Positions 12,297 to 23,526 of a DNA stretch of 32,070 bases are shown here, one piece after another. Each line of letters opens with the position of its first letter. The stretch's first letter is position 1. The notes beneath the pieces were generated by a model. It was not told the DNA's origin, did no database searches, and saw only the letters and a program-made list of their open reading frames with translations. Position numbers and translations under genes: made by a program. The DNA is from Akkermansiaceae bacterium (lineage in GTDB: Bacteria; Verrucomicrobiota; Verrucomicrobiia; Verrucomicrobiales; Akkermansiaceae), in contig JAIPKB010000045.1 in the NCBI GenBank assembly GCA_021733795.1, positions 1 to 32,070 of the forward strand. Direction: 5' to 3'.

Positions 12297-15200
12297 ATGG
12301 CAAGGCTGCTCTTGGTCGCGACCTTCGCTGGATCGACCGCCACCGCCCTGCCCGTGATCAGCGAAATCCTCGCCGATAACGGGACCGGGCTCCGGGACGG
12401 GGACGGCGAGTACAGCGACTGGATCGAGATCTTCAACCCGGATCCCGTCGCCGTCGACCTTGACGGATACTGCCTCACCGACGACCCCGCCGCCCCTGCC
12501 AAATGGCGGTTTCCACCCGCCACCACCCTCGGGCCGCTCAAGTTCCTGATCGTGTTCGCTTCGAACAAGAACCGCGCCGTTTCCGGTCAGCAACTGCACA
12601 CCAACTTCAAGCTCGACGGGGCGGGGGAGTACCTGGCGCTGGTCGCCCCCGACGGGGTCACCGTGGTCTCCGGTTTCGTGCCGATGTTTCCCGTCCAATT
12701 CACCAATGCCTCCTATGGTCTCGAACAGACGGCCATCACCGCCGAGGAGCCCCTTGTTGATTCCGATGCCCCCTGCACGGTCCATGTCCCGACCGACACC
12801 ACGCTGGGAACCTCATGGATGCAGGCTGGGTTCGATGATACGGCGTGGACCGCCGGCACGCCCGGCGTCGGTTACGAACGCGGCACCGGATATGAAAGCC
12901 TGATCAATCTCGACGTCGAGCAGGATATGTACAGCCAGAACGGATCGGTCTATATCCGTATCCCGTTCGAGGTTCCCGATCCAGGCGGGATCCTGGACCT
13001 CCGCCTCGAGATGCAGTTCGACGACGCTTTTGAAGCCTACCTCAACGGCACGCGGGTGGCGGGCGCCAACGCCGTCGTCTATCCGGCTTGGAATGCGAAC
13101 GCCACCACCGAGAGTCCCGACGGGGATGCCCTCGACCTCCGAACCTACTCCCTGCAATCCAGGATCGGCCTGCTCGAGAGCGGCGACGCGCTCCTCGCCA
13201 TCCAGGGTTTGAACATCAACCCCTCCGATGATGACTTCTTGATTCGCCCGCAGCTGGTGGCGACCCGCCTGACCGGAGTCACCATGGGCGGCCTCGCCTA
13301 TTTCACCGTTCCCACACCCGGAGCGCCGAACGGGGTTCAGCAGCAACTCCCCGCCAGCAAAGTCATCTTCTCGGAGCCTGGCCGGACCTTCACCAGCCCG
13401 TTCCAAGTCACCCTCAGCAGCGAGTTCGGGGAAGTCATCCGCTATACGCTGAACGGCACGGTGCCAAGCACCTCGTCGCCCGTCTACGCCGCGCCCCTCA
13501 CCCTCACCAACTCGACACAGCTTCGCGCCCGGGTTTTCGCCGCCAACAACGCAGTGGGGCCCCTCGCGATGGAAACCTACCTCCGGCTCTCCGCCGACCT
13601 GCAGAATTTCAGCTCCAACCTGCCGATCGTGATCCTCGAGAACTGGGGCCGCGGCAGGCCGGGGACTGAAACGAACACCCCCGGCTTCTGGGCCATTATC
13701 GAACCGGACGGCTCCACCAACAGCCGCGCCGAAATGCTCGACCCGTTCCAAGTCGCTTCCCGCTGCGGGATGCGCAACCGCGGATCCTCCTCCGAAGGGT
13801 GGCCGAAATACTCCCTCTCCATCGAAGCCCAGGATGAGAACGGCCTCGACAAGGGGATCAAGCCGCTGGGCATGCCGAAGGAATCCGATTGGATCCTGAG
13901 CGGCCGCTACCAGTTCGACCCGGCCCTCATGCGCAACGACCTCATGTATGAGCTCAGCAACCAGACGGGCGAATACGCGGTGCGCACCCGCGTCGTCGAG
14001 GTCTTCAACAACACCGACGGTGGGAACCTCTCCTACGCCGGCGACTACTTCGGGGTCTATACCCTCATGGAAAAGATCAAGCGCGATGACAATCGCGTCG
14101 CGGTCGCGGAAATCGGCCCGCGCGACGTCGTGGAGCCTAAGGTGAGCGGCGGCTACATGTTCAAGAAAGACCGCCTCGATCCCGGCGACTCCGGATTCGC
14201 GGTCAATCACATGGGCACCTTCGGGTGGGTCGAACCCAAGGAAAGCGAAGTCCATCGCACCCAGCGCATCTGGCTTCAGAACTATCTCAACGAGCTGGAC
14301 GCCGCCCTCTACGCCTCCAACTGGACGAACCCCGCCACCAGGAAGCATTTCACCGAGTATATCGACAGCGGTTCCTGGCTCCGGCACCACTGGCTCAACA
14401 CCCTCGCCATGAACGTCGACGGTTTCCGCCTCAGCGGATATTACTACAAGCACCGCAGTGACACCAACGGCGGCAGGCTCGGGGCCGGTCCGATTTGGGA
14501 TTTCGACCGCACCATGGAGTCGACGGACGGTCGCGACGACTCGCCCACGGCATGGGACGGCAGCGGGGACTCCAGCCACACCTGGGACGACTCGCGCTTT
14601 CCATGGTGGGGGCGCGCCCTGACCAATCCGGACTTCCGGCAGGCCCACACCGACCTCTGGCAGGAACTCCGCAAGACCACCTTCTCCACGGCCAATATCA
14701 ATTCCATCATCGATGACCTTGCGGCCCAGATCGACTTCCAGGACCCGGCCGGCGTCAACTCCCGTCTCGCCAGATCGCCCGCAGCCCGCAATTTCGCGAA
14801 GTGGACCCAATATCCCCCCCGCGGCGGCAGCCATGCCGCCGAAGTCACCCTGCTGAAGAACTGGCTGGTGACCCGTGGCAAGTGGATCGACCAGCAGTAT
14901 ACCGCGCCGCGGGGGTTCTCGGTCGCGCCCGGGCTGGTCTCCCCCGGCAGTACCGTCGGGTTCACGGGCCGCGGTGGGACCGTCTACTACACCACCGACG
15001 GCAGCGACCCCCGGCTTCCCGGCGGCGGCGTCTCCTCCTCGGCCAGTTCCAGCCTGCCCGTTGTGATCAACTCCACCACCATCATCACGGTACGCGCCCG
15101 CAACGGCACCGGACTCACCTCCTGGAGCGGACCGAGCAAGGGGATCTATCTCGTCGGCCCGCTCGCCACCGCCTCCAATCTCGTCATCACCGAAGTCCAT

Positions 15201-16484
15201 TACGCGCCGCTGCCGCCCGCCACACCGGCCGAACTCGCAGCGACCACGGAGGTCTCCGATTTCGAGTTCCTGGAACTGATGAACATCAGCCCGACCGACA
15301 CGATCGACCTCACCGAGGTGCACTTTGAAGCGGGCATCGACTTCCGCTTCACCGGTTCCGCCGTGACCTCCCTCGCGCCAGGCGAGCGCGTTCTCATCGT
15401 CGGCAGACGGGCCGCCTTCGAGGCCCGCTACGGAACCGGCCACAGCGCTCGCATCGCCGGGGAATTCGCCCCGTCCCGCCTCGACAATGCCGGCGAGCGC
15501 CTTCACCTCGTCGATGCCCTCGGCGTGACCATCGCCGACTTCAGCTACCACGACAAGAGCCCCTGGCCCCCCGCGGCCGGCTTTGCCGGCTACAGCATGG
15601 TCCTCAGGTCGCCCGCCATTTCCGATCCCGACTACACTGTCGCCGGCAACTGGCGCAGCAGCGGGTTCCTGGGTGGCAATCCGAATGCCACCGACAGCAC
15701 GACGCTTGTCGGGGTTGCCACCGACGACGACGATCACGACGGCCTCAACAATCTCCTCGAACATGCCCTTGGAACGGGCAGTTCCCAACCCGGCGATCCC
15801 GGTCGCCTCTTCTCATTCGCGATCCAGTCCCTCGAAGTGGCCGGCTCCATCAATGACTACATGACCTTCACCCACCGGCTCAACCTCACGGCCGATGACG
15901 TGATCCTGGATTTCGAGGGGTCCTTCGATCTCATGAATTGGTTGGGCGGGGATGCCTGGTTCCCGGTCGTCTCGGAAGTCAACCAAGGCGACGGCACCTC
16001 CCTGCTCACCCATCGGACCCTGTTGCCCTTCACTCCCGGGGCCAACCCGAACCTTTTCCTGCGCCTGCGCGTGCGTTCGCTGCTTGCTCCCTCCTTCGCC
16101 GACTGGCTGGCCGGCCAGGGGGCCACCGATCCGCAGGCACCCTTTGCCGGCTCCTCGTTGTCCAACCTGCTGGCCTATGCGGTCGGTGCCGACCTCGCCG
16201 CCACACCCGAGGCCGCTCTCCCCGCGTTTTTGATCATCAACGAGGCGGGCGTCGACTACCCCGCCCTTCGCTATCGGGTCCGCCAGGGTGCCGGCCAGCT
16301 CACCTGCGCGGTGGAGGTCTCCACCGACCTTGTGACTTGGCAGGACGGCGAGCAATCCACAGTGGAGGTTGCCGTCCCGCAGGACAACGGCGACGGCACC
16401 CGAACCGTCACGGTCCGCACCCTCAAGCCCGTCACCGCCGGGCCGGCCCTCTACCTGCGCCTCCGCGTCAGCCTGCCGCCGTGA
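12297..16484 (+). CDS. Giant secreted lamin-tail / CotH-kinase protein 1
   Basis: A 1395-residue extracellular protein. ATG 12297 is chosen because it begins a signal peptide (MARLLLVATFAGSTATA). Domains in order: lamin-tail domain (about 18-131, VISEILADNGTGL and WIEIFNP); galactose-binding-like beta sandwich (about 169-325, GFDDTAWTAGTPGVGYE); chitobiase-type Ig domain (about 362-421, IRYTLNGTVPS); CotH-kinase domain (about 441-842, with GDYFGVYTLMEKIKRDDNR and the metal-site stretch PIWDFDRTME near residue 735); a second chitobiase-type domain (about 892-952, VYYTTDGSDP); a second lamin-tail domain (about 958-1092); and a C-terminal module from F1267 shared with the second CotH protein. 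CotH kinases phosphorylate proteins in Bacillus spore coats; the role here is unknown. No PEP-CTERM or LPXTG anchor was seen. Confidence 0.88.
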   Translation: MARLLLVATFAGSTATALPVISEILADNGTGLRDGDGEYSDWIEIFNPDPVAVDLDGYCLTDDPAAPAKWRFPPATTLGPLKFLIVFASNKNRAVSGQQLHTNFKLDGAGEYLALVAPDGVTVVSGFVPMFPVQFTNASYGLEQTAITAEEPLVDSDAPCTVHVPTDTTLGTSWMQAGFDDTAWTAGTPGVGYERGTGYESLINLDVEQDMYSQNGSVYIRIPFEVPDPGGILDLRLEMQFDDAFEAYLNGTRVAGANAVVYPAWNANATTESPDGDALDLRTYSLQSRIGLLESGDALLAIQGLNINPSDDDFLIRPQLVATRLTGVTMGGLAYFTVPTPGAPNGVQQQLPASKVIFSEPGRTFTSPFQVTLSSEFGEVIRYTLNGTVPSTSSPVYAAPLTLTNSTQLRARVFAANNAVGPLAMETYLRLSADLQNFSSNLPIVILENWGRGRPGTETNTPGFWAIIEPDGSTNSRAEMLDPFQVASRCGMRNRGSSSEGWPKYSLSIEAQDENGLDKGIKPLGMPKESDWILSGRYQFDPALMRNDLMYELSNQTGEYAVRTRVVEVFNNTDGGNLSYAGDYFGVYTLMEKIKRDDNRVAVAEIGPRDVVEPKVSGGYMFKKDRLDPGDSGFAVNHMGTFGWVEPKESEVHRTQRIWLQNYLNELDAALYASNWTNPATRKHFTEYIDSGSWLRHHWLNTLAMNVDGFRLSGYYYKHRSDTNGGRLGAGPIWDFDRTMESTDGRDDSPTAWDGSGDSSHTWDDSRFPWWGRALTNPDFRQAHTDLWQELRKTTFSTANINSIIDDLAAQIDFQDPAGVNSRLARSPAARNFAKWTQYPPRGGSHAAEVTLLKNWLVTRGKWIDQQYTAPRGFSVAPGLVSPGSTVGFTGRGGTVYYTTDGSDPRLPGGGVSSSASSSLPVVINSTTIITVRARNGTGLTSWSGPSKGIYLVGPLATASNLVITEVHYAPLPPATPAELAATTEVSDFEFLELMNISPTDTIDLTEVHFEAGIDFRFTGSAVTSLAPGERVLIVGRRAAFEARYGTGHSARIAGEFAPSRLDNAGERLHLVDALGVTIADFSYHDKSPWPPAAGFAGYSMVLRSPAISDPDYTVAGNWRSSGFLGGNPNATDSTTLVGVATDDDDHDGLNNLLEHALGTGSSQPGDPGRLFSFAIQSLEVAGSINDYMTFTHRLNLTADDVILDFEGSFDLMNWLGGDAWFPVVSEVNQGDGTSLLTHRTLLPFTPGANPNLFLRLRVRSLLAPSFADWLAGQGATDPQAPFAGSSLSNLLAYAVGADLAATPEAALPAFLIINEAGVDYPALRYRVRQGAGQLTCAVEVSTDLVTWQDGEQSTVEVAVPQDNGDGTRTVTVRTLKPVTAGPALYLRLRVSLPP
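16095..16481 (+). repeat. C-terminal module copy 1 (cotH-like gene 1)
   Basis: This segment encodes about 129 residues starting FADWLAGQGATDPQAPF and containing GSSLSNLLAYAVGADL, YPALRYRVR, PQDNGDGT and a final LRLRVSLPP. Two further copies lie in tandem at the 3' end of the second CotH gene. DNA similarity is high, especially around the SLSNLLAYAVGADL codons, so the copies could recombine. Confidence 0.8.
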
Positions 16485-16485
16485 T

Positions 16486-16751
16486 GGGGGTGCATGACAA
16501 TAAGGTCAGAATTCCGCAAGCACAGGCAGGGACCGTCTTTCCGAGCGGTCCGGCGGGGGCGAGCCCGCACTTCCATCCAATCCCAAGCCACCCGGACCGT
16601 CCGCCCGCACCCATTCGCTGATCGGGAGGTCGGCGACCCCACGCCGATTTTCCCGCGCACGGGGCTGTTCCCAGCCGGACCGCCCGGAGGTCGGTCCCTG
16701 CCTGCGGTTCCCGGGGTGGCGGGGCGTTCGACTTGTTTGTCATGCACCCCC
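16486..16751. repeat. REPIN/MITE-like inverted-repeat element A (266 bp)
   Basis: Perfect 15-bp terminal inverted repeats, GGGGGTGCATGACAA at 16486-16500 and its complement at 16737-16751, enclose two small opposed hairpins: GGACCG/CGGTCC at 16530-16551 and again at 16677-16697. The arms around them (GGCAGGGACCG) are also inverted copies, so the whole element can fold into one long stem or two arm hairpins. It begins one base after the CotH stop. It encodes no protein. A closely similar copy, itself interrupted, lies at 23108-23526. Confidence 0.8.
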
Positions 16752-16843
16752 CTGATGGCGGCGGCGATAAATTGACTTGCCAAGCACGCTCCACCGCGCT
16801 CTGATCCCCGTGCCTTGATCAAGATGAGATTGGAACTAAAACA

Positions 16844-17635
16844 ATGAATACACTGAATTTGAGATTAGCGATTCCGGCCTTGGTGCTGGGGTTGTTTGTG
16901 GGTACCCGGGGTCAGGAAGAGGCCGACGTCCCCCGGGGCTGGCTGCGCATGCTGCCGGTGGGCGACGCACCGCCGTATATCCAGGAAACCCGCGGCGGGG
17001 TGCGCCATGAGGTGGACGCGCCGCAGGGGTCCGTGCCGCCCCGCGAGGTGGTGGTTCCGGCTCCGGGGAAGAGTGCCGAGGGCGAGGGGAAAGTGCGGAT
17101 GACCTTGGGACGAGTGAGTGAAGCCGTCCTGGTTGGGGTGGGGCCCGTGGTGCTTTCGGCAAAGCCGGAGAATGGCGAGCCGGCGCGGTGGACCCAGATC
17201 ATGATGCCGCGAAATTCCGCCGCGCTGGCGATCATCTTCCGCGATCCGCGGCAGAAATCCTGGGATGCCGTCCGGAGCATCGTCGTGGCGGATGACATTG
17301 GATCGTTTCCCGCGGGGACGGTAAGGTTCGTCAACGCGACGCCGTTTGAGGCGGGCGTCTCGTTCGAGGGAAAGAACACCCTGATGAAAGCCGGTCAGGT
17401 CATGCTCAAACAGCCGGCCCGGGGCGCGGCGATCAAAGACGAGCCCGTGATGGTGGCAATTCGGGATGCAAACGGCAAGACGGCGCGCGTTTTCGACAGT
17501 ACCATTTCGCAGGATGCCGGGGAGCGGACGAATGTGGTCATTTACTGGGCGGACGGTGCGAACCCGCGGCGGCCAAGCAAGGTGCTGCTCCATCGCGAAC
17601 GACCCGCGCCGCGCAAGATGCCCGGTGCCAGGTAA
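16844..17635 (+). CDS. Secreted protein of unknown function between the CotH genes
   Basis: A 263-residue protein with a signal peptide (RLAIPALVLGLFVGTRGQ; cleavage near residue 23) and no family I recognise. The mature part is beta-rich. A Pro-rich stretch (VPPREVVVPAPGK) is followed by RMTLGRVSEAVLVGVGPVVL, TVRFVNATPFEAGVSFEG and a basic C-terminal end, KVLLHRERPAPRKMPGAR. The FVNATPFEAGVSFEGK-like segment looks like an Ig-type or cupredoxin-type beta sandwich, but this is a guess. It lies 25 bases before the second CotH gene, so the two are probably co-transcribed and it may be a partner or substrate of the CotH protein. The CotH ORF extends upstream over this gene only as a shadow. Confidence 0.75.
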   Translation: MNTLNLRLAIPALVLGLFVGTRGQEEADVPRGWLRMLPVGDAPPYIQETRGGVRHEVDAPQGSVPPREVVVPAPGKSAEGEGKVRMTLGRVSEAVLVGVGPVVLSAKPENGEPARWTQIMMPRNSAALAIIFRDPRQKSWDAVRSIVVADDIGSFPAGTVRFVNATPFEAGVSFEGKNTLMKAGQVMLKQPARGAAIKDEPVMVAIRDANGKTARVFDSTISQDAGERTNVVIYWADGANPRRPSKVLLHRERPAPRKMPGAR

Positions 17636-17660
17636 CCAAACCCGAATCACTTCCCTTGCC

Positions 17661-20600
17661 ATGCCAAGATTCCTCCCAGGCCTTGCCTTCGCGTTGCTAA
17701 TCCCTGCGGTCTCCGCCGGGGTGGTGATCAACGAGGTCCACTACAACCCGCCGGAAAACCCGGTGCGGCAGGAGTTCATCGAACTCTACAACCCCGGAAA
17801 CTCCGCCGCCGAGCTCTCCGGGTGGCGCCTTTCCGGTGCCCTCGACTACGTCTTTCCCTCCGGCACCAGCATCCCCGCCGGCGGCTACCTCGTGATTGCG
17901 GAGGATCCCCCGACGCTGCTCTCGACTCTCGGTGCCACCGCGCTCGGGCCTTATGCCGGTCAGTTGGATTCCGAGGGCGAGACGGTCCGCCTGCGCGACC
18001 CGAACGACGCGGTGGTCGATGAGGTCGACTACCAGGTCGGCTTCCCATGGCCGGTGGCGTCGAATGGCGGGGGATCCTCGATCGAGCTGATCAATCCCTC
18101 GCTGGACAATGCGCTCGGAAGTTCGTGGCGCGCCTCCCAAGTGCCCCCGACGCCCGGCGCGCAGAACAGCGTCTTTGCGGCCAACGCCGCGCCGAACATT
18201 CGCAAAGTGAGTCACACTCCGGAGCAGCCGACTGCCGCCGATCCGGTGGTGATCACCGCCTTGGTCACCGATCCCGAAGGGGTGGCGACGGTGACGCTCG
18301 AGTATCAAGTGGTCGCACCGGGTGCTTATGTCCCGTCGCACCTGCCGCTGCGCATCAACAACAATGACATTTACCCCTTGGTGCCGCGCCCCGCGAACCG
18401 GTCTTACAATACCGGCTGGACCAGCGTGCCGATGCTTGACGACGGCACCAGCGGCGATTTACTGGCCGGCGATGGCATCTTCACCGTCACCCTCCCCGCG
18501 CAGGCGCACCGGACCCTCGTGCGCTACCGGATCACGGTCGAGGACGGGCTTGGCCTTGCCGCCCGGGTGCCCTACCCGGACGACGAGTCCCTGAACTTCG
18601 CCTATTTCGTCTATGACGGCGTCCCGTCCTACGCCCGCAACTCTCCGGCGATCTTGCAAACCCTGCCGGTTTACCACCTGATCACCCGCGGGCAGGACTA
18701 TGCCCAGTGCTTCGCCTACAACGGCGCCGACCAGATCAACCAGGGCAGCGACGCGCGGTTTTTCTACAACTGGAGCGGCACGTTGGTCTACGACGGGGTG
18801 GTCTACGATAACATCTCCTACCGCTTGCGGGGAGCGAATGGCCGCTACTACCTGCAGGGCAAGCGCTCGATGCGCTTCCGCCTCAACGACGGATCCTACT
18901 TCCAGGCCCGCGACCAGCTCGGCAAGAAGTATCCGAAGATGTGGCGCACCCTGACCACCGGCAAGGGCTTCGACAACCGCCAGACCCAGACCTTCGCGCT
19001 CAACGAGGCCATGAGCATGTATCTCTTCAACAAGGTCGGCGTGCCGGCTCCCGATACGCACTGGGTCCACTGGCGCGTGATCGACGGCGCGGACGAGGCG
19101 CCGGACCAATGGCGGGGGGATTTCCACGGGCTGAATTTCGTCCTCGAGACCTATGACGTCCGCTTCATGGAGGCGCACGGCATGGCGAAGGGCAACCTCT
19201 ACAAGCTTATCAACCAGACCAACGACTGGCAGCGCCAGCAGCGCTATCAGGCCGCCTTCGCTCCGAGCGACGGCAGTGATCACAACTCCATCGAAAACGA
19301 TCTCGATGGCGGCGACTCGGCGAGCTACATCGCCTCCCGCGTCAACATGGACCGCTGGAACCGCTGGCACGCGCTGGCCGAGGCAACCCGCATCTATGAC
19401 TTCTGGCCGAACTCCAACAAGAACATGACCTACTACTTCGAGCCGGTCTACAGCAGTAGGAACGGCTACAAAGGCAAGCTCTGGATCCTGCCCTGGGACA
19501 CCGATGCCAGTTGGGGTCCGACTTGGAACAACGGGCACGATGTCGTCTACAACGCGCTGTTCCCGTCCTACGACGGCGGTGGCGACAGCAACAGCACCCC
19601 CGAGCTCTGGCCCGAGTACTTCAACACGGTGCGCGAGCTCCGCGACCTGCTCTGGCAGAGCGATCAGATCAATCCGCTGATCGACGAGTTCTCAGCCTTT
19701 ATCACGCCCTTCGAGGCCGCCGATGCCGCCCGCTGGAAGGGAGCGCCCGCCGATGCAGGGAGCTACAGCGGCCTCGGCGGCGCGGGCACGACCTCCTTCG
19801 CCAACTTCGCGAAGGACATGAAGAACTTCGCCTTTGTCGGTGGCAGTTGGCCGGGCGGAAACGTGGGTGCCGGCGGACGCGCCGCGTTCCTCGACACCCT
19901 CCAGGCTTCGAACGGCGAGGGCGCGCAGCTCCCCGGCACCCCGACTATCACCTATACCGGAACCGCGGGGTATCCCACCGACGGTCTCGTGTTCCAGAGC
20001 GGCAACTTCGCCGATCCCCAGGGTGTGGGCAGCTTCGCGGCGATGGAGTGGCGCATCGCCGAGATCACCGACCCGCTGGCCCCCAAGCACGATCCGACCA
20101 GGCGCTTCAAGCTGGAATGGGAGGCCGACTGGGAATCCGGTGAACTGACCACCTTCGACCAGACGCTGGTGGTGCCCACCCCGGCGGTGCGCTCGGGCCT
20201 GACCTACCGGGCCCGGGTCCGCCACAAGGATAAAACCGGGCGCTGGAGCCACTGGTCAGCGCCGGTCACCTTCACCACCACCCTGCCGGACCTTTCCCCC
20301 TACCTCGCGGGACTGGTGATCTCGGAGGTCATGTATCATCCCGCCGATCCCACCGCCGCCGAGTTGGCAGCGGGCTTCACGGACGACGACGATTTCGAAT
20401 ACATCGAACTGCACAACGTCGGTCCGGTCGCGCTCAATCTAACGGACCTGCGGCTCACCAAAGGCGTCGATTTCGACTTTCTCGGGGCGGCCATCACCGG
20501 CCTCGCTCCCGGTGAGTTCGTCCTTGTCGTCTCAAACCGCGCCGCGTTTGAAATGCGCTACGGGACCGGGCTCCCGATCGCCGGCGAATGGGAGCCCACC

Positions 20601-21623
20601 GACAAACTCAACAACGCTGGCGAGCAAATCAAGCTCTCCTTCGGCGCGGGCGACACGATCCGCGATTTCATTTACGACGATGTGGCCCCGTGGCCCACCG
20701 CGGCCGATGGGATGGGGGCGTCGCTCACGTTGGCCGATCCGGATGCGGTCCCGGACCACGGTTTGGCCGCAAACTGGCATGCCAGTTCCGCCCCGCAGGG
20801 CAGCCCCGGAACCGATGATCTCACGGGTCCATTTGCCGAGTGGATGGCGGCCCGCGGCGCCACCGATCCCGCCGCACCCTTTGGCTCGTCCTCGTTGTCC
20901 AACCTGCTCGCCTATGCGGTGGGGGCCGATCTCACCCCCACTCCCGAGGCCGCCCTGCCCACCTTGGTGATCGTGGACGAGGGCGGAACCGCCTATCCCG
21001 CGCTGCGCTATCGCGCCCGCCGGGATACCGGCGATGTCACCTGCGCCGTCGAAGTCTCCGATGACCTCGTGCGGTGGCAGAGCGGCGGTGCCTTCACTAC
21101 CCAGGTCGGGGCCCCGCAGGATAACGGTGACGGCACCGACACCCTGACAGTCCGCTCCCTCCACTCAGTCGCCTCCAAGCCGACCCAGTTCCTGCGCTTG
21201 CGCGTCGCCCTGTCCGGCGTGGGATCCGGCCCCTTCGAGGTCTGGATGACGACCCACGGTGCCAGCGATCCGTTCGCTCCCTTTGGCTCGTCCTCGCTCT
21301 CGAACTTGCTCGCCTACGCGGTGGGGGCGGATCTCGCTCCCACTCCCGAGGTCGCTCTGCCTGCGGTTTCGATCATTCAGGAAGGCGCTGCCAGCTATCC
21401 CGCGTTGCGCTATCGTGTCCGCCGGGATGCCAACGATGTCACCTATGATGTCGAGGTCTCCAATGACCTCGTGCTGTGGCAGAACGGCGGTGCCTTCACC
21501 ACCCAGGCCGGGTCCCCGCAGGACAACGGCGACGGCACCGTCACGGTGACCGTCCGCTCGCTCCAGTCCCTCGCCTCCAAGCCGACCCAGTTCCTGCGCC
21601 TCCGCGTGAGCCTCACCCCCTGA
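17661..21623 (+). CDS. Giant secreted lamin-tail / CotH-kinase protein 2
   Basis: A 1320-residue extracellular protein. ATG 17661 begins a signal peptide (MPRFLPGLAFALLIPAVSA); the longer open frame back to 17466 overlaps another gene and lacks one. Domains in order: lamin-tail (about 18-170, VVINEVHYNPPENPVRQEFI); Ig-like (about 180-317, ALVTDPEGVATVTLEY); CotH kinase (about 337-680, with YRLRGANGRYYLQGKRSMRF and LWILPWDTDASWGPTWNN, the likely metal/nucleotide site); an intermediate fibronectin-like region; a second lamin-tail domain (about 884-1055, VISEVMYHPADPTAAELAAG); then two tandem copies of the C-terminal module, from F1058 and F1192. Architecture and C-terminus match the first CotH protein, but that protein has one module copy and two chitobiase-type domains. 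The phosphorylation target is unknown. Confidence 0.88.
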   Translation: MPRFLPGLAFALLIPAVSAGVVINEVHYNPPENPVRQEFIELYNPGNSAAELSGWRLSGALDYVFPSGTSIPAGGYLVIAEDPPTLLSTLGATALGPYAGQLDSEGETVRLRDPNDAVVDEVDYQVGFPWPVASNGGGSSIELINPSLDNALGSSWRASQVPPTPGAQNSVFAANAAPNIRKVSHTPEQPTAADPVVITALVTDPEGVATVTLEYQVVAPGAYVPSHLPLRINNNDIYPLVPRPANRSYNTGWTSVPMLDDGTSGDLLAGDGIFTVTLPAQAHRTLVRYRITVEDGLGLAARVPYPDDESLNFAYFVYDGVPSYARNSPAILQTLPVYHLITRGQDYAQCFAYNGADQINQGSDARFFYNWSGTLVYDGVVYDNISYRLRGANGRYYLQGKRSMRFRLNDGSYFQARDQLGKKYPKMWRTLTTGKGFDNRQTQTFALNEAMSMYLFNKVGVPAPDTHWVHWRVIDGADEAPDQWRGDFHGLNFVLETYDVRFMEAHGMAKGNLYKLINQTNDWQRQQRYQAAFAPSDGSDHNSIENDLDGGDSASYIASRVNMDRWNRWHALAEATRIYDFWPNSNKNMTYYFEPVYSSRNGYKGKLWILPWDTDASWGPTWNNGHDVVYNALFPSYDGGGDSNSTPELWPEYFNTVRELRDLLWQSDQINPLIDEFSAFITPFEAADAARWKGAPADAGSYSGLGGAGTTSFANFAKDMKNFAFVGGSWPGGNVGAGGRAAFLDTLQASNGEGAQLPGTPTITYTGTAGYPTDGLVFQSGNFADPQGVGSFAAMEWRIAEITDPLAPKHDPTRRFKLEWEADWESGELTTFDQTLVVPTPAVRSGLTYRARVRHKDKTGRWSHWSAPVTFTTTLPDLSPYLAGLVISEVMYHPADPTAAELAAGFTDDDDFEYIELHNVGPVALNLTDLRLTKGVDFDFLGAAITGLAPGEFVLVVSNRAAFEMRYGTGLPIAGEWEPTDKLNNAGEQIKLSFGAGDTIRDFIYDDVAPWPTAADGMGASLTLADPDAVPDHGLAANWHASSAPQGSPGTDDLTGPFAEWMAARGATDPAAPFGSSSLSNLLAYAVGADLTPTPEAALPTLVIVDEGGTAYPALRYRARRDTGDVTCAVEVSDDLVRWQSGGAFTTQVGAPQDNGDGTDTLTVRSLHSVASKPTQFLRLRVALSGVGSGPFEVWMTTHGASDPFAPFGSSSLSNLLAYAVGADLAPTPEVALPAVSIIQEGAASYPALRYRVRRDANDVTYDVEVSNDLVLWQNGGAFTTQAGSPQDNGDGTVTVTVRSLQSLASKPTQFLRLRVSLTP
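20832..21233 (+). repeat. C-terminal module copy 2 (402 bp)
   Basis: First of two tandem in-gene copies. It starts FAEWMAARGATDPAAPF and carries GSSSLSNLLAYAVGADLT, AVEVSDDLVRWQSGGAFTTQ and KPTQFLRLRVALSG. The period to the next copy is 402 bp (134 residues). Confidence 0.85.
21234..21620 (+). repeat. C-terminal module copy 3
   Basis: Second tandem copy in the same gene, starting FEVWMTTHGASDPFAPF with GSSSLSNLLAYAVGADLA, VEVSNDLVLWQNGGAFTTQ and KPTQFLRLRVSLTP at the very end. It is closer to copy 2 than copy 1 is, which suggests a recent duplication inside this gene. Confidence 0.85.
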
Positions 21624-21904: not shown

Positions 21905-22891
21905 CTATTTTTTCAGGCTGGCCCAAGCGCGGTCCATCCCATCCCGAAGGATCCAGGCCCGCTTGCGATCCGACGCCTCCGAGCGCGCCGCCTTGAGCAC
22001 CCGGGCGAGTTCGGCACGGGATTTTTCCGATACGCCATCGATGACTTGCAGCGCCTCACAGGTGACCTCATACAGCGCGGCACATGCGGCCGCCTCACCC
22101 TTGTTGAACAGCGGCACGCCCCGCTTGATGGCCAGCTCAATCAGCCCGGTTGGGCTTGGAGCGGCCGCTTCCGGAGTGGCCGGAATCAACACCTGGTCGA
22201 TCACGTGAATCGTCCCATTGAAGCCACCGGCAGCCTTGGCAACCTCCACCAAGGTTCTGCCACTCTTGGCGTCGGCGTTGGCAGGGGCGGCTTGCTCATC
22301 GGTAGCCGTCACCGACTCGATCTCCAGCGAGAACGGTCCGGCATTCTTGTCCGCCAGCGTGAACCCGATCGACGCGACCGCCGCCGGATTGATCGCCTTG
22401 AACGGGAGGGCACGCCCGAACGCCTGAGGCTTGAAATCGGCGAACGGAATCCGGGTTTCCTGCCATTCGCCGGCCGTCGTGGGGAGGTAGGCGCGGTATG
22501 AGGTGGCGCCCATTTGGCCGGCCGTCCGCAGGTCCAGCCAGTAGGTCCGCCCGTCGCCCCGCGCTTTCACGACGATCGCGGTGGTTCCCGACAGCTCGAA
22601 TTTCCCGGGCTTGGTACGAACGGAGGCAAAACCGCCGTTGTTTTCCAGCGAAAGCTCGCCGCTGAATAGCAAGGTCCCCTGCTCGGTGCGCTTGAATCCG
22701 CCTTTGGACACTCCTCCCATGACCCCGTCATTGACGGATGTCCAGGATTCCAGGGAATCGGCGGTCTTGAAAGTCGCCAGTTCTTGCTGGGCCGCCAGCA
22801 ACGGCAACTGCGTCAGCAGAGCGCCCAAGGCGGTGGCGATGAGCCCGCCGCGGGCGGGGGAATAGGGCTTCGTGGTTTTCATGGTATTCAT
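21905..22891 (-). CDS. CIA30-family secreted protein with shortened fasciclin-like segment
   Basis: A 328-residue protein starting MNTMKTTKPYSPARGGLIAT, with a signal peptide ending near LLAAQQ. ATG 22891 is used; the open frame further upstream runs through a repeat element and is not coding. Residues of about 40-200 form a CIA30-like beta sandwich (WTSVNDGVMGGVSKGGFKRT, YWLDLRTAGQMGATSY, IPFADFKPQAFGRALPFK, IGFTLADKNAGPFSLEIESV). At about 210-235, LVEVAKAAGGF is joined directly to NGTIHVIDQVLIP: the first and last strands of a fasciclin domain with the roughly 100 residues between them missing. A helical C-terminal domain (LAIKRGVPLFNKGEAAACAA, then LYEVTCEAL) follows. CIA30 proteins have diverse or unknown roles in bacteria, so the function here is unknown. 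Confidence 0.82.
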   Translation of the reverse strand: MNTMKTTKPYSPARGGLIATALGALLTQLPLLAAQQELATFKTADSLESWTSVNDGVMGGVSKGGFKRTEQGTLLFSGELSLENNGGFASVRTKPGKFELSGTTAIVVKARGDGRTYWLDLRTAGQMGATSYRAYLPTTAGEWQETRIPFADFKPQAFGRALPFKAINPAAVASIGFTLADKNAGPFSLEIESVTATDEQAAPANADAKSGRTLVEVAKAAGGFNGTIHVIDQVLIPATPEAAAPSPTGLIELAIKRGVPLFNKGEAAACAALYEVTCEALQVIDGVSEKSRAELARVLKAARSEASDRKRAWILRDGMDRAWASLKK

Positions 22892-22978
22892 GTTCTGTGT
22901 GGTTGTTTGGTTGTGTTTGAAAAGTCCGTTCAGCGATCTCGCCGGCAGCGAACATGGATGCAACTTACCGCGGATTCG

Positions 22979-23023
22979 TAACTTGTCAAGGTTTTGTCGA
23001 AAAAATGTAGAAATATTTTTCGA
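22979..23023 (-). promoter_or_regulatory. Possible promoter and operator of the CIA30 gene
   Basis: On the minus strand a perfect TTGACA (22984-22989) is preceded by an 8-bp perfect inverted repeat, TCGAAAAA/TTTTTCGA (22997-23004 and 23016-23023, 11-base spacer), in an AT-rich patch of an otherwise GC-rich region. The matching -10 box is poor (TAAGTT after 16 bases, three of six). The dyad just upstream of the -35 suits an activator site. The gene start is about 90 bases downstream. Confidence 0.3.
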
Positions 23024-23107
23024 AGGCGCTTGCGACCGGGTCATGGATGGCCGGAATTCGTCGATATCGTGCAAGCCATGGGTGGGAGAACAAGCGCCGA
23101 AAAGCAC

Positions 23108-23526
23108 CGGGTGCATGACAATAAAGTCAAAATTCTGCAAGCACAGGCAGGGACCGTCTCTCTGAGCGGTCCGGCGGGGGCAAGGCCGCGCTTTTATCCA
23201 ATCCCAAGCCACCCGGACCGTCCTCCCGCCCCCATTCCAGGATCGGGTTGTCGGCGACCCCACGCCGTTATTCCCGCGCACCGGGCTTTTCCCACCCGGA
23301 CCGCCCAATGCTGTTCAATTAGGAATTTCCAACCACGGATTACACGGATTGGCACGGATAGTGCTCCGCGTTTTTGTCTCTTATCCGTGTACATCCGTGT
23401 CATCCGTGGTTGAATTTATCTGTCCTTCGCTCCCAATTGAACAGTATTGCCCGGACCGCTCGGAGATCGGTCCCTGCCTGTAGTTCCCGGGGTGGCGGGG
23501 CGTTTGACTTTTTTCTCATGCACCCG
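23108..23526. repeat. REPIN/MITE-like inverted-repeat element B, interrupted (419 bp)
   Basis: A second copy of element A. The ends CGGGTGCATGA (23108-23118) and its perfect complement (23516-23526) form the terminal repeat, and the interior matches A closely (GCAAGCACAGGCAGGGACCG, GTCGGCGACCCCACGCCG, TTCCCGGGGTGGCGGGGCG). The opposed GGACCG/CGGTCC hairpins are kept. The right half is split by a 145-bp insertion at 23305-23449. It lies between the divergent CIA30 and SDR genes. Confidence 0.8.
23305..23449. mobile_element. Nested 145-bp palindromic insertion inside element B
   Basis: The segment is flanked by a perfect 10-bp direct repeat, CCCGGACCGC (23295-23304 and 23450-23459), as a target-site duplication would be. 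Its ends are inverted repeats (CAATGCTGTTCAATT at 23306-23320, pairing 14 of 15 with 23435-23449). The interior is a near-palindrome of CACGGAT units (23331-23360 against 23381-23411), able to form a hairpin of about 30 bp. It encodes no protein, so it is a non-autonomous element moved by machinery elsewhere. Confidence 0.75.

Follow-up and report, generated by a model that had tools for sequence, protein, structure and literature searches.

A small protein encoded between two CotH kinase-like giants of an Akkermansiaceae bacterium belongs to a pseudopilin-linked family

What is a small secreted protein doing between two giant kinase-like exoproteins? The question is raised by a contig of an Akkermansiaceae bacterium (GenBank assembly GCA_021733795.1, contig JAIPKB010000045.1, positions 1 to 32,070), referred to here in its full length of 32,070 nucleotides as the window. 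In this contig, the gene for the protein P0002 lies between those for P0001 and P0003, two very large proteins with CotH kinase-like domains (Table 1). The initial annotation proposed the small protein as a natural substrate or partner of the two putative kinases. Our comparison of 59 genomes, including that of the window itself (6.07 Mb in 318 contigs, 86% complete), leads to a different answer: P0002 is a member of a pseudopilin-linked family and not a CotH-specific partner. We favor, with a probability of about one half, the reading that P0002 is an immunoglobulin (Ig)-type adaptor of a Verru_Chthon-like pseudopilin system, which would serve giant proteins ending in a common tail domain, CotH proteins among them.

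The P0002 family and its linkage to a prepilin-type protein

Used as a single query, P0002 detects homologues in 17 of the 59 genomes, its own included, with a best match of 1.2e-40 outside its own genome. Starting from this homology, first found with P0002 alone, a family profile of 22 sequences that includes P0002 (A1) extends the family to 37 genomes. The membership of P0002 is backed by homology to other members down to E 1e-40 and by its position in a tree of 53 rows, where its nearest relatives are the small proteins of loci L169 and L173; the three rows form one clade (100/97), with 42% identity at best. P0002 matches no model of Pfam or NCBIfam, a single-query search of the named genomes gave no relative, and the family profile found no convincing relative by sequence among solved structures (best E 0.14). 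Related loci in named genomes bear the titles of Akkermansiaceae and Verrucomicrobiaceae.

The family is accompanied by a prepilin-type protein of about 1200 amino acids that resembles Verru_Chthon cassette protein A, is called VCA here, and carries a conserved C-terminal FGRRFxIVSFRWL motif. Both the family and VCA are present in 36 of the 59 genomes, the family only in one, VCA only in four and neither in 18, and the numbers per genome correlate strongly (Spearman 0.93). The 100 best listed places of the small family were compared with 149 listed VCA genes (mostly the best 11 of each genome) and 48 listed CotH matches. At least 56 of these places lie directly downstream of a listed VCA gene, on the same strand and at distances from -7 to 327 nt; another 10 have a VCA otherwise within 6 kb, six have one farther off, and 28 have none listed on their contig. 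The CotH side of this comparison is incomplete: the 48 matches exclude genomes without the small family and most of genome G051, among whose listed CotH matches none shares a contig with that genome's small gene, and the CotH giant of locus L066 (G021:C99) is absent from them as well.

The same arrangement prevails in the genome of the window, where seven of nine small genes follow a VCA, the exceptions being a copy on contig C3 and P0002 itself on contig C41. Among 62 VCA loci of named genomes, the small gene is directly downstream in 23, divergent in four, several kilobases away on the other strand in 11 and absent from 24, four of which have no room for it. Such loci are present in strains of culturable relatives, Luteolibacter marinus, Haloferula and Roseibacillus. 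The small genes of L169 and L173, the nearest relatives of P0002, both directly follow a VCA; P0002 therefore looks like a cassette gene that has been parted from its cassette.

A more complete set of genes is found in a relative at locus L090 (8506-14923), where Verru_Chthon D-like, B-like and C-like genes for small pseudopilins precede the A-like gene (VCA), followed by the small two-Ig gene, all four Verru_Chthon matches being below cut-off; many other loci consist of VCA and the small gene alone. The likeness to the Verru_Chthon cassette A-D (TIGR02600, TIGR02598, TIGR02599, TIGR02596) lies in the giant prepilin-type A-like protein and in this gene order. In contrast, all matches cover just the N-terminus or a part of the protein and fall well short of the curated cut-offs (TIGR02600, for protein A, gives 16.9-33.6 bits with those VCA proteins that it matches, against a cut-off of 332.3, and does not match the others), the small gene has no counterpart among the models, and the copy in the window stands apart from any cassette. 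VCA also matches, through its N-terminal pseudopilin segment, the type II secretion minor pseudopilin GspK (NF037980), but with about 18-28 bits against a cut-off of 130, and VCA is about four times the length of the model. The outer-membrane secretin PF00263 has four matches over its cut-off in a genome-wide scan made irrespective of the cassette. A literature search found no paper under the Verru_Chthon name and none joining Akkermansiaceae with a pseudopilin, and the papers retrieved for CotH and Verrucomicrobia were off topic. The family of P0002 belongs to a bacterial surface system that is apparently unstudied.

Modeled with AF2 from the family alignment (pLDDT 87.5, pTM 0.82), P0002 displays an N-terminal helix, likely the signal, and then 18 strands, with a predicted fold of two tandem Ig-like domains. 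The best match in the PDB is the extracellular domain of PepT2 (VIA Z 12.5, rmsd 3.4, 182 residues aligned), with Foldseek E-values for the PepT group down to 1e-6. Further matches of the C-terminal half are AlgF domains (Z 8.2-8.5) and, in several pore-forming proteins, the last domain (Z 9-10); according to a warning of the tool, Z values of this size can stem from a common arrangement. The extracellular domain of PepT1/PepT2 likewise has tandem Ig-like domains but is part of an animal transporter, with 16% identity at best and no functional link implied. On account of its predicted tandem Ig-like domains, P0002 is read as a binding rather than a catalytic protein, a fold being in itself no proof of function.

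Some loci depart from the common arrangement. A clade of the small family (L047, L049, L052 and L056) lies near pdxA-like genes, recognized by eye, with no adjacent VCA; the genomes concerned hold high-scoring, unlinked VCA genes. At L087 (2249-3076), a secreted-looking protein of 275 amino acids, which the small-family profile does not detect, comes after a divergent VCA at C284. In L092 and L093, two to three VCA-small gene pairs form a tandem array in one stretch.

Tail-domain giants and a possible adaptor role

Both giants of the window end in a domain of about 130 residues, present in tandem (profile A4). The initial annotation had noticed the C-terminal part common to P0001 (932-1395) and P0003 (853-1320), and this part does align, with 45% identity over some 470 residues. 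As a sign that the two giants are paired it was rejected, the same tail domain being found throughout the genome: with 150 of 223 candidates scored, 110 matches were obtained at E 1e-3. Of the 30 best matches, 28 end no more than six residues from the stop, the other two being the internal copies in the window giants. The domain occurs in 57 of the 59 genomes and on 12 of the 14 CotH proteins of the window's genome. Within this genome, the CotH giants are unexceptional representatives of a large class of modular exoproteins. Neither Pfam nor NCBIfam gave a match worth naming. The model (pLDDT 92) comprises a helical part and an Ig-like strand sandwich; a DxDxDG loop is present in many members and lost in three of the four window copies. 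On a possible homology to sorting domains of the type IX secretion system (T9SS), these libraries likewise gave nothing worth naming, and PDB matches were to generic Ig-like folds, with Z up to 7.2; VIA-align returned generic Ig-like rows alone, where the absence of others excludes nothing.

These giants recur beside VCA genes. In the window's genome, 4 of 13 VCA genes (12 listed ones and one on contig C54) have a tail-domain giant directly upstream on the same strand, which is above expectation (binomial about 7e-6 to 1e-4, with chance rates of 1-2% assumed); two of the four giants, on C89 and C15, had been in the tail-domain model. From the end of the tail domain to the VCA frame, the distance is no more than about 260 nt on C89, C15 and C210; on C54, VCA comes within about 160 nt after a CotH giant that carries the tail domain. 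The VCA fragment of C54 is closest to the VCAs of L169 and L173 (48% and 47%, versus 38-44% for four others). As in the window, a small gene precedes a tail-domain giant at L061, with a distance of 43 nt and no CotH in the giant. At L066, in a relative, a CotH giant and a VCA-small gene pair are convergent. CotH giants thus seem to be a few among the many clients or neighbors of the system.

In the adaptor reading, P0002 would be a detached member of a two-Ig family normally encoded next after VCA, acting as a periplasmic or surface adaptor or chaperone of a type II secretion-like pseudopilus. The clients of this system may be giant Sec-exported proteins that end in the tail domain, with its helical part, frequent DxDxDG loop and Ig-like sandwich; in the window these would be the two CotH kinase-like giants. 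The pseudopilin partner of P0002 would be unlinked, with candidate genes on contigs C33, C10 and C54.

Several observations weigh against this reading. Within the genus, presence of the family and presence of VCA show no significant association (Fisher p 0.26), almost all genomes having both, and it is the counts that correlate (0.88). Among the named VCA loci with room for a small gene, 20 of 58 have no small homologue. No VCA or other pseudopilin was found in the window, whose contig does not appear among the listed VCA matches. Ig-like folds are widespread and do not reveal a function. Moreover, 18 genomes carry the tail domain without a VCA match at E 1e-10; the tail domain thus cannot depend on VCA alone, and a strict tie between the two was rejected.

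P0002 might instead be a chaperone or stabilizer of VCA itself, encoded apart from it, and its place between the CotH giants accidental. VCA is the only constant neighbor of the family, two high-scoring small genes of the window's genome (C3, C41) are orphans, high-scoring VCA genes on C33 and C10 lack a neighboring small gene, and two Ig-like domains would suit a chaperone. We regard this account as possible, if rather unlikely; against it, tail-domain giants recur beside the VCA-small gene pair, and the small gene of L061 directly precedes such a giant.

Extended to its full scope, the adaptor reading would give Akkermansiaceae-type Verrucomicrobia several paralogous pseudopilus machines of the Verru_Chthon-like kind, every one equipped with a two-Ig adaptor, that export and display about 100 tail-marked giants per genome, CotH kinases included, as a C-terminal-signal secretion system of their own. 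This generalization is speculative, and we consider it doubtful in this complete form. Instead of one trio of genes, there is now a system to test: a multicopy pseudopilin cassette repeatedly joined by one more gene. What makes the locus interesting is this cassette, the additional gene and the tail domain, which has no name in Pfam or NCBIfam and is carried by roughly a hundred exoproteins of the genome. Should the domain and the cassette cooperate, this would explain the export of giant surface proteins, kinase-like ones included.

Layout of the locus

Table 1. Features of the three-gene locus, in window coordinates (LTD, lamin-tail domain).
Feature	Coordinates	Strand	Remarks
P0001, 1395 aa	12297..16484	+	LTD, CHB_HEX/Fn3_assoc, CotH (493-864), second LTD, two tandem C-terminal tail domains
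P0001 CotH kinase-like domain	13773..14888	+	Asp708, Asp735 equivalent to B. subtilis CotH D228, D251
P0001 tail domain (C-terminal domain, CTD), two tandem copies	15711..16481	+	
Dispersed palindromic repeat, P0001-P0002 gap	16475..16762	.	Arms 16475-16507, 16730-16762; copies elsewhere in genome
P0002, 263 aa, secreted	16844..17635	+	VCA-linked family; predicted tandem Ig-like domains
P0003, 1320 aa	17661..21623	+	LTD, CotH (about 447-696), Ig-like, second LTD, two tandem C-terminal tail domains
P0003 CotH kinase-like domain	18822..19829	+	Asp580, Asp613 equivalent to D228, D251
P0003 tail domain, two tandem copies	20829..21620	+	

The order of the three genes, described at the outset as 1395, 263 and 1320 residues in a row, was recovered with all reading frames on the forward strand, and the 25 bases reported between P0002 and P0003 agree with the frame coordinates; the gap between P0001 and P0002 is 359 bases. 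Secretion signals were assessed by eye only. Judging from the gap of 25 nt, P0002 and P0003 are probably co-transcribed. Most of the upstream gap is occupied by a palindromic repeat element, the arms of which are 82% complementary, and P0001 and P0002 may be on separate transcripts because this element sits between them. Scanning for promoters gave no hit, and sites resembling terminators were as frequent as in shuffled sequence. The repeat has 84 matches in the genome, palindromic self-matches counted, some of them at 23109-23525 of the window. Its termini are imperfect inverted repeats of about 33 nt. A CIA30-domain protein is encoded on the reverse strand at 21905-23308, and the 5' end of its open frame overlaps a repeat copy.

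A many-copy repeat between P0001 and P0002, with another copy nearby, agrees with the view that the three genes are chance neighbors, namely giant exoproteins moved by the repeat and a stray cassette gene. So does the fate of the proposed conserved order, as a CotH-small-CotH trio was seen nowhere else examined. This explanation is nonetheless decidedly improbable, given that tail-domain giants precede VCA genes above expectation and that the spacing of P0002 and P0003 is operon-like.

The CotH kinase-like giants

Judged from their sequences, P0001 and P0003 are members of the CotH family. The LTD and CotH domains ascribed to both giants are borne out by Pfam matches in P0001 (CotH 5e-40, LTD 5.9e-23, together with CHB_HEX_C_1 and Fn3_assoc) and P0003 (LTD 4.8e-31, CotH 4.1e-14, together with Ig_Rha78A_N), and the PF08757 scores of 138.4 and 53.2 bits, respectively, are over the curated cut-off of 23.8. 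The two CotH domains align weakly with each other (25% over 116 residues). Searched singly with phmmer against the PDB, P0001 and P0003 returned no CotH structure; a CotH profile of nine domains, eight from the window's genome and one from a relative, matches the spore coat protein H structures 5jd9/5jda at 6.8e-23.

In B. subtilis CotH, the D228Q and D251A forms are described as catalytically inactive (PMC7821199). Loss of the metal-binding kinase residues had been named as a possible objection to the initial proposal. Both Asp are kept in each giant (Table 1), an equivalence that rests on alignment to 5jd9, in which two Asp 23 residues apart match the D228/D251 spacing. In protein kinases, an Asn five residues past the catalytic Asp binds metal. 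At +5 from the first Asp, 5jd9 has this Asn, whereas P0001 and P0003 have Ser, with an Asn at +4 in P0003. Kinase activity of the two proteins is possible on the strength of these alignments. A further difference from the spore coat kinase is that the giants are large exoproteins of modular build, in which LTD, CHB_HEX/Fn3 and tail domains accompany CotH. The cellulosomal LTD-LTD-Fn3-CotH protein Cthe_0239 (PMC6083626) likewise joins LTD and CotH in one exported protein, but it is a clostridial cellulosome component, and the window giants carry a different C-terminal tail domain.

The distribution of the small family bears directly on the proposed kinase partnership. Absence of the small protein beside CotH genes in other genomes had been named at the outset as evidence against it, and such absence is what the regions examined show. 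No homologue of P0002 occurs in the 20 fetched regions that cover 22 other CotH matches, 11 of the 14 in the window's genome and 11 in relatives. Of the remaining three in this genome, two are those of the window and one, on C15 (L081), is about 13 kb from a VCA-small gene pair. Across the 59 genomes, 12 have both the family and CotH, 25 the family only, nine CotH only and 13 neither (p 0.58), so that 25 of the 37 family-bearing genomes are without any CotH domain; CotH is likewise present at none of the 62 named VCA loci, and relatives of P0001 (L135, L136, L143) and of P0003 (L124) have no small neighbor. That P0002 is a substrate or accessory of both CotH kinases, phosphorylated by them after export, as the 25-nt gap on the same strand and the conserved Asp residues might suggest, is therefore highly improbable; a CotH link peculiar to the window copy is conceivable.

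The relative of P0003 at L124 (G000:C297, 12799-16440) is the closest in the genome, with 48.5% identity over 1232 amino acids, and it lies a few kilobases from another CotH giant.

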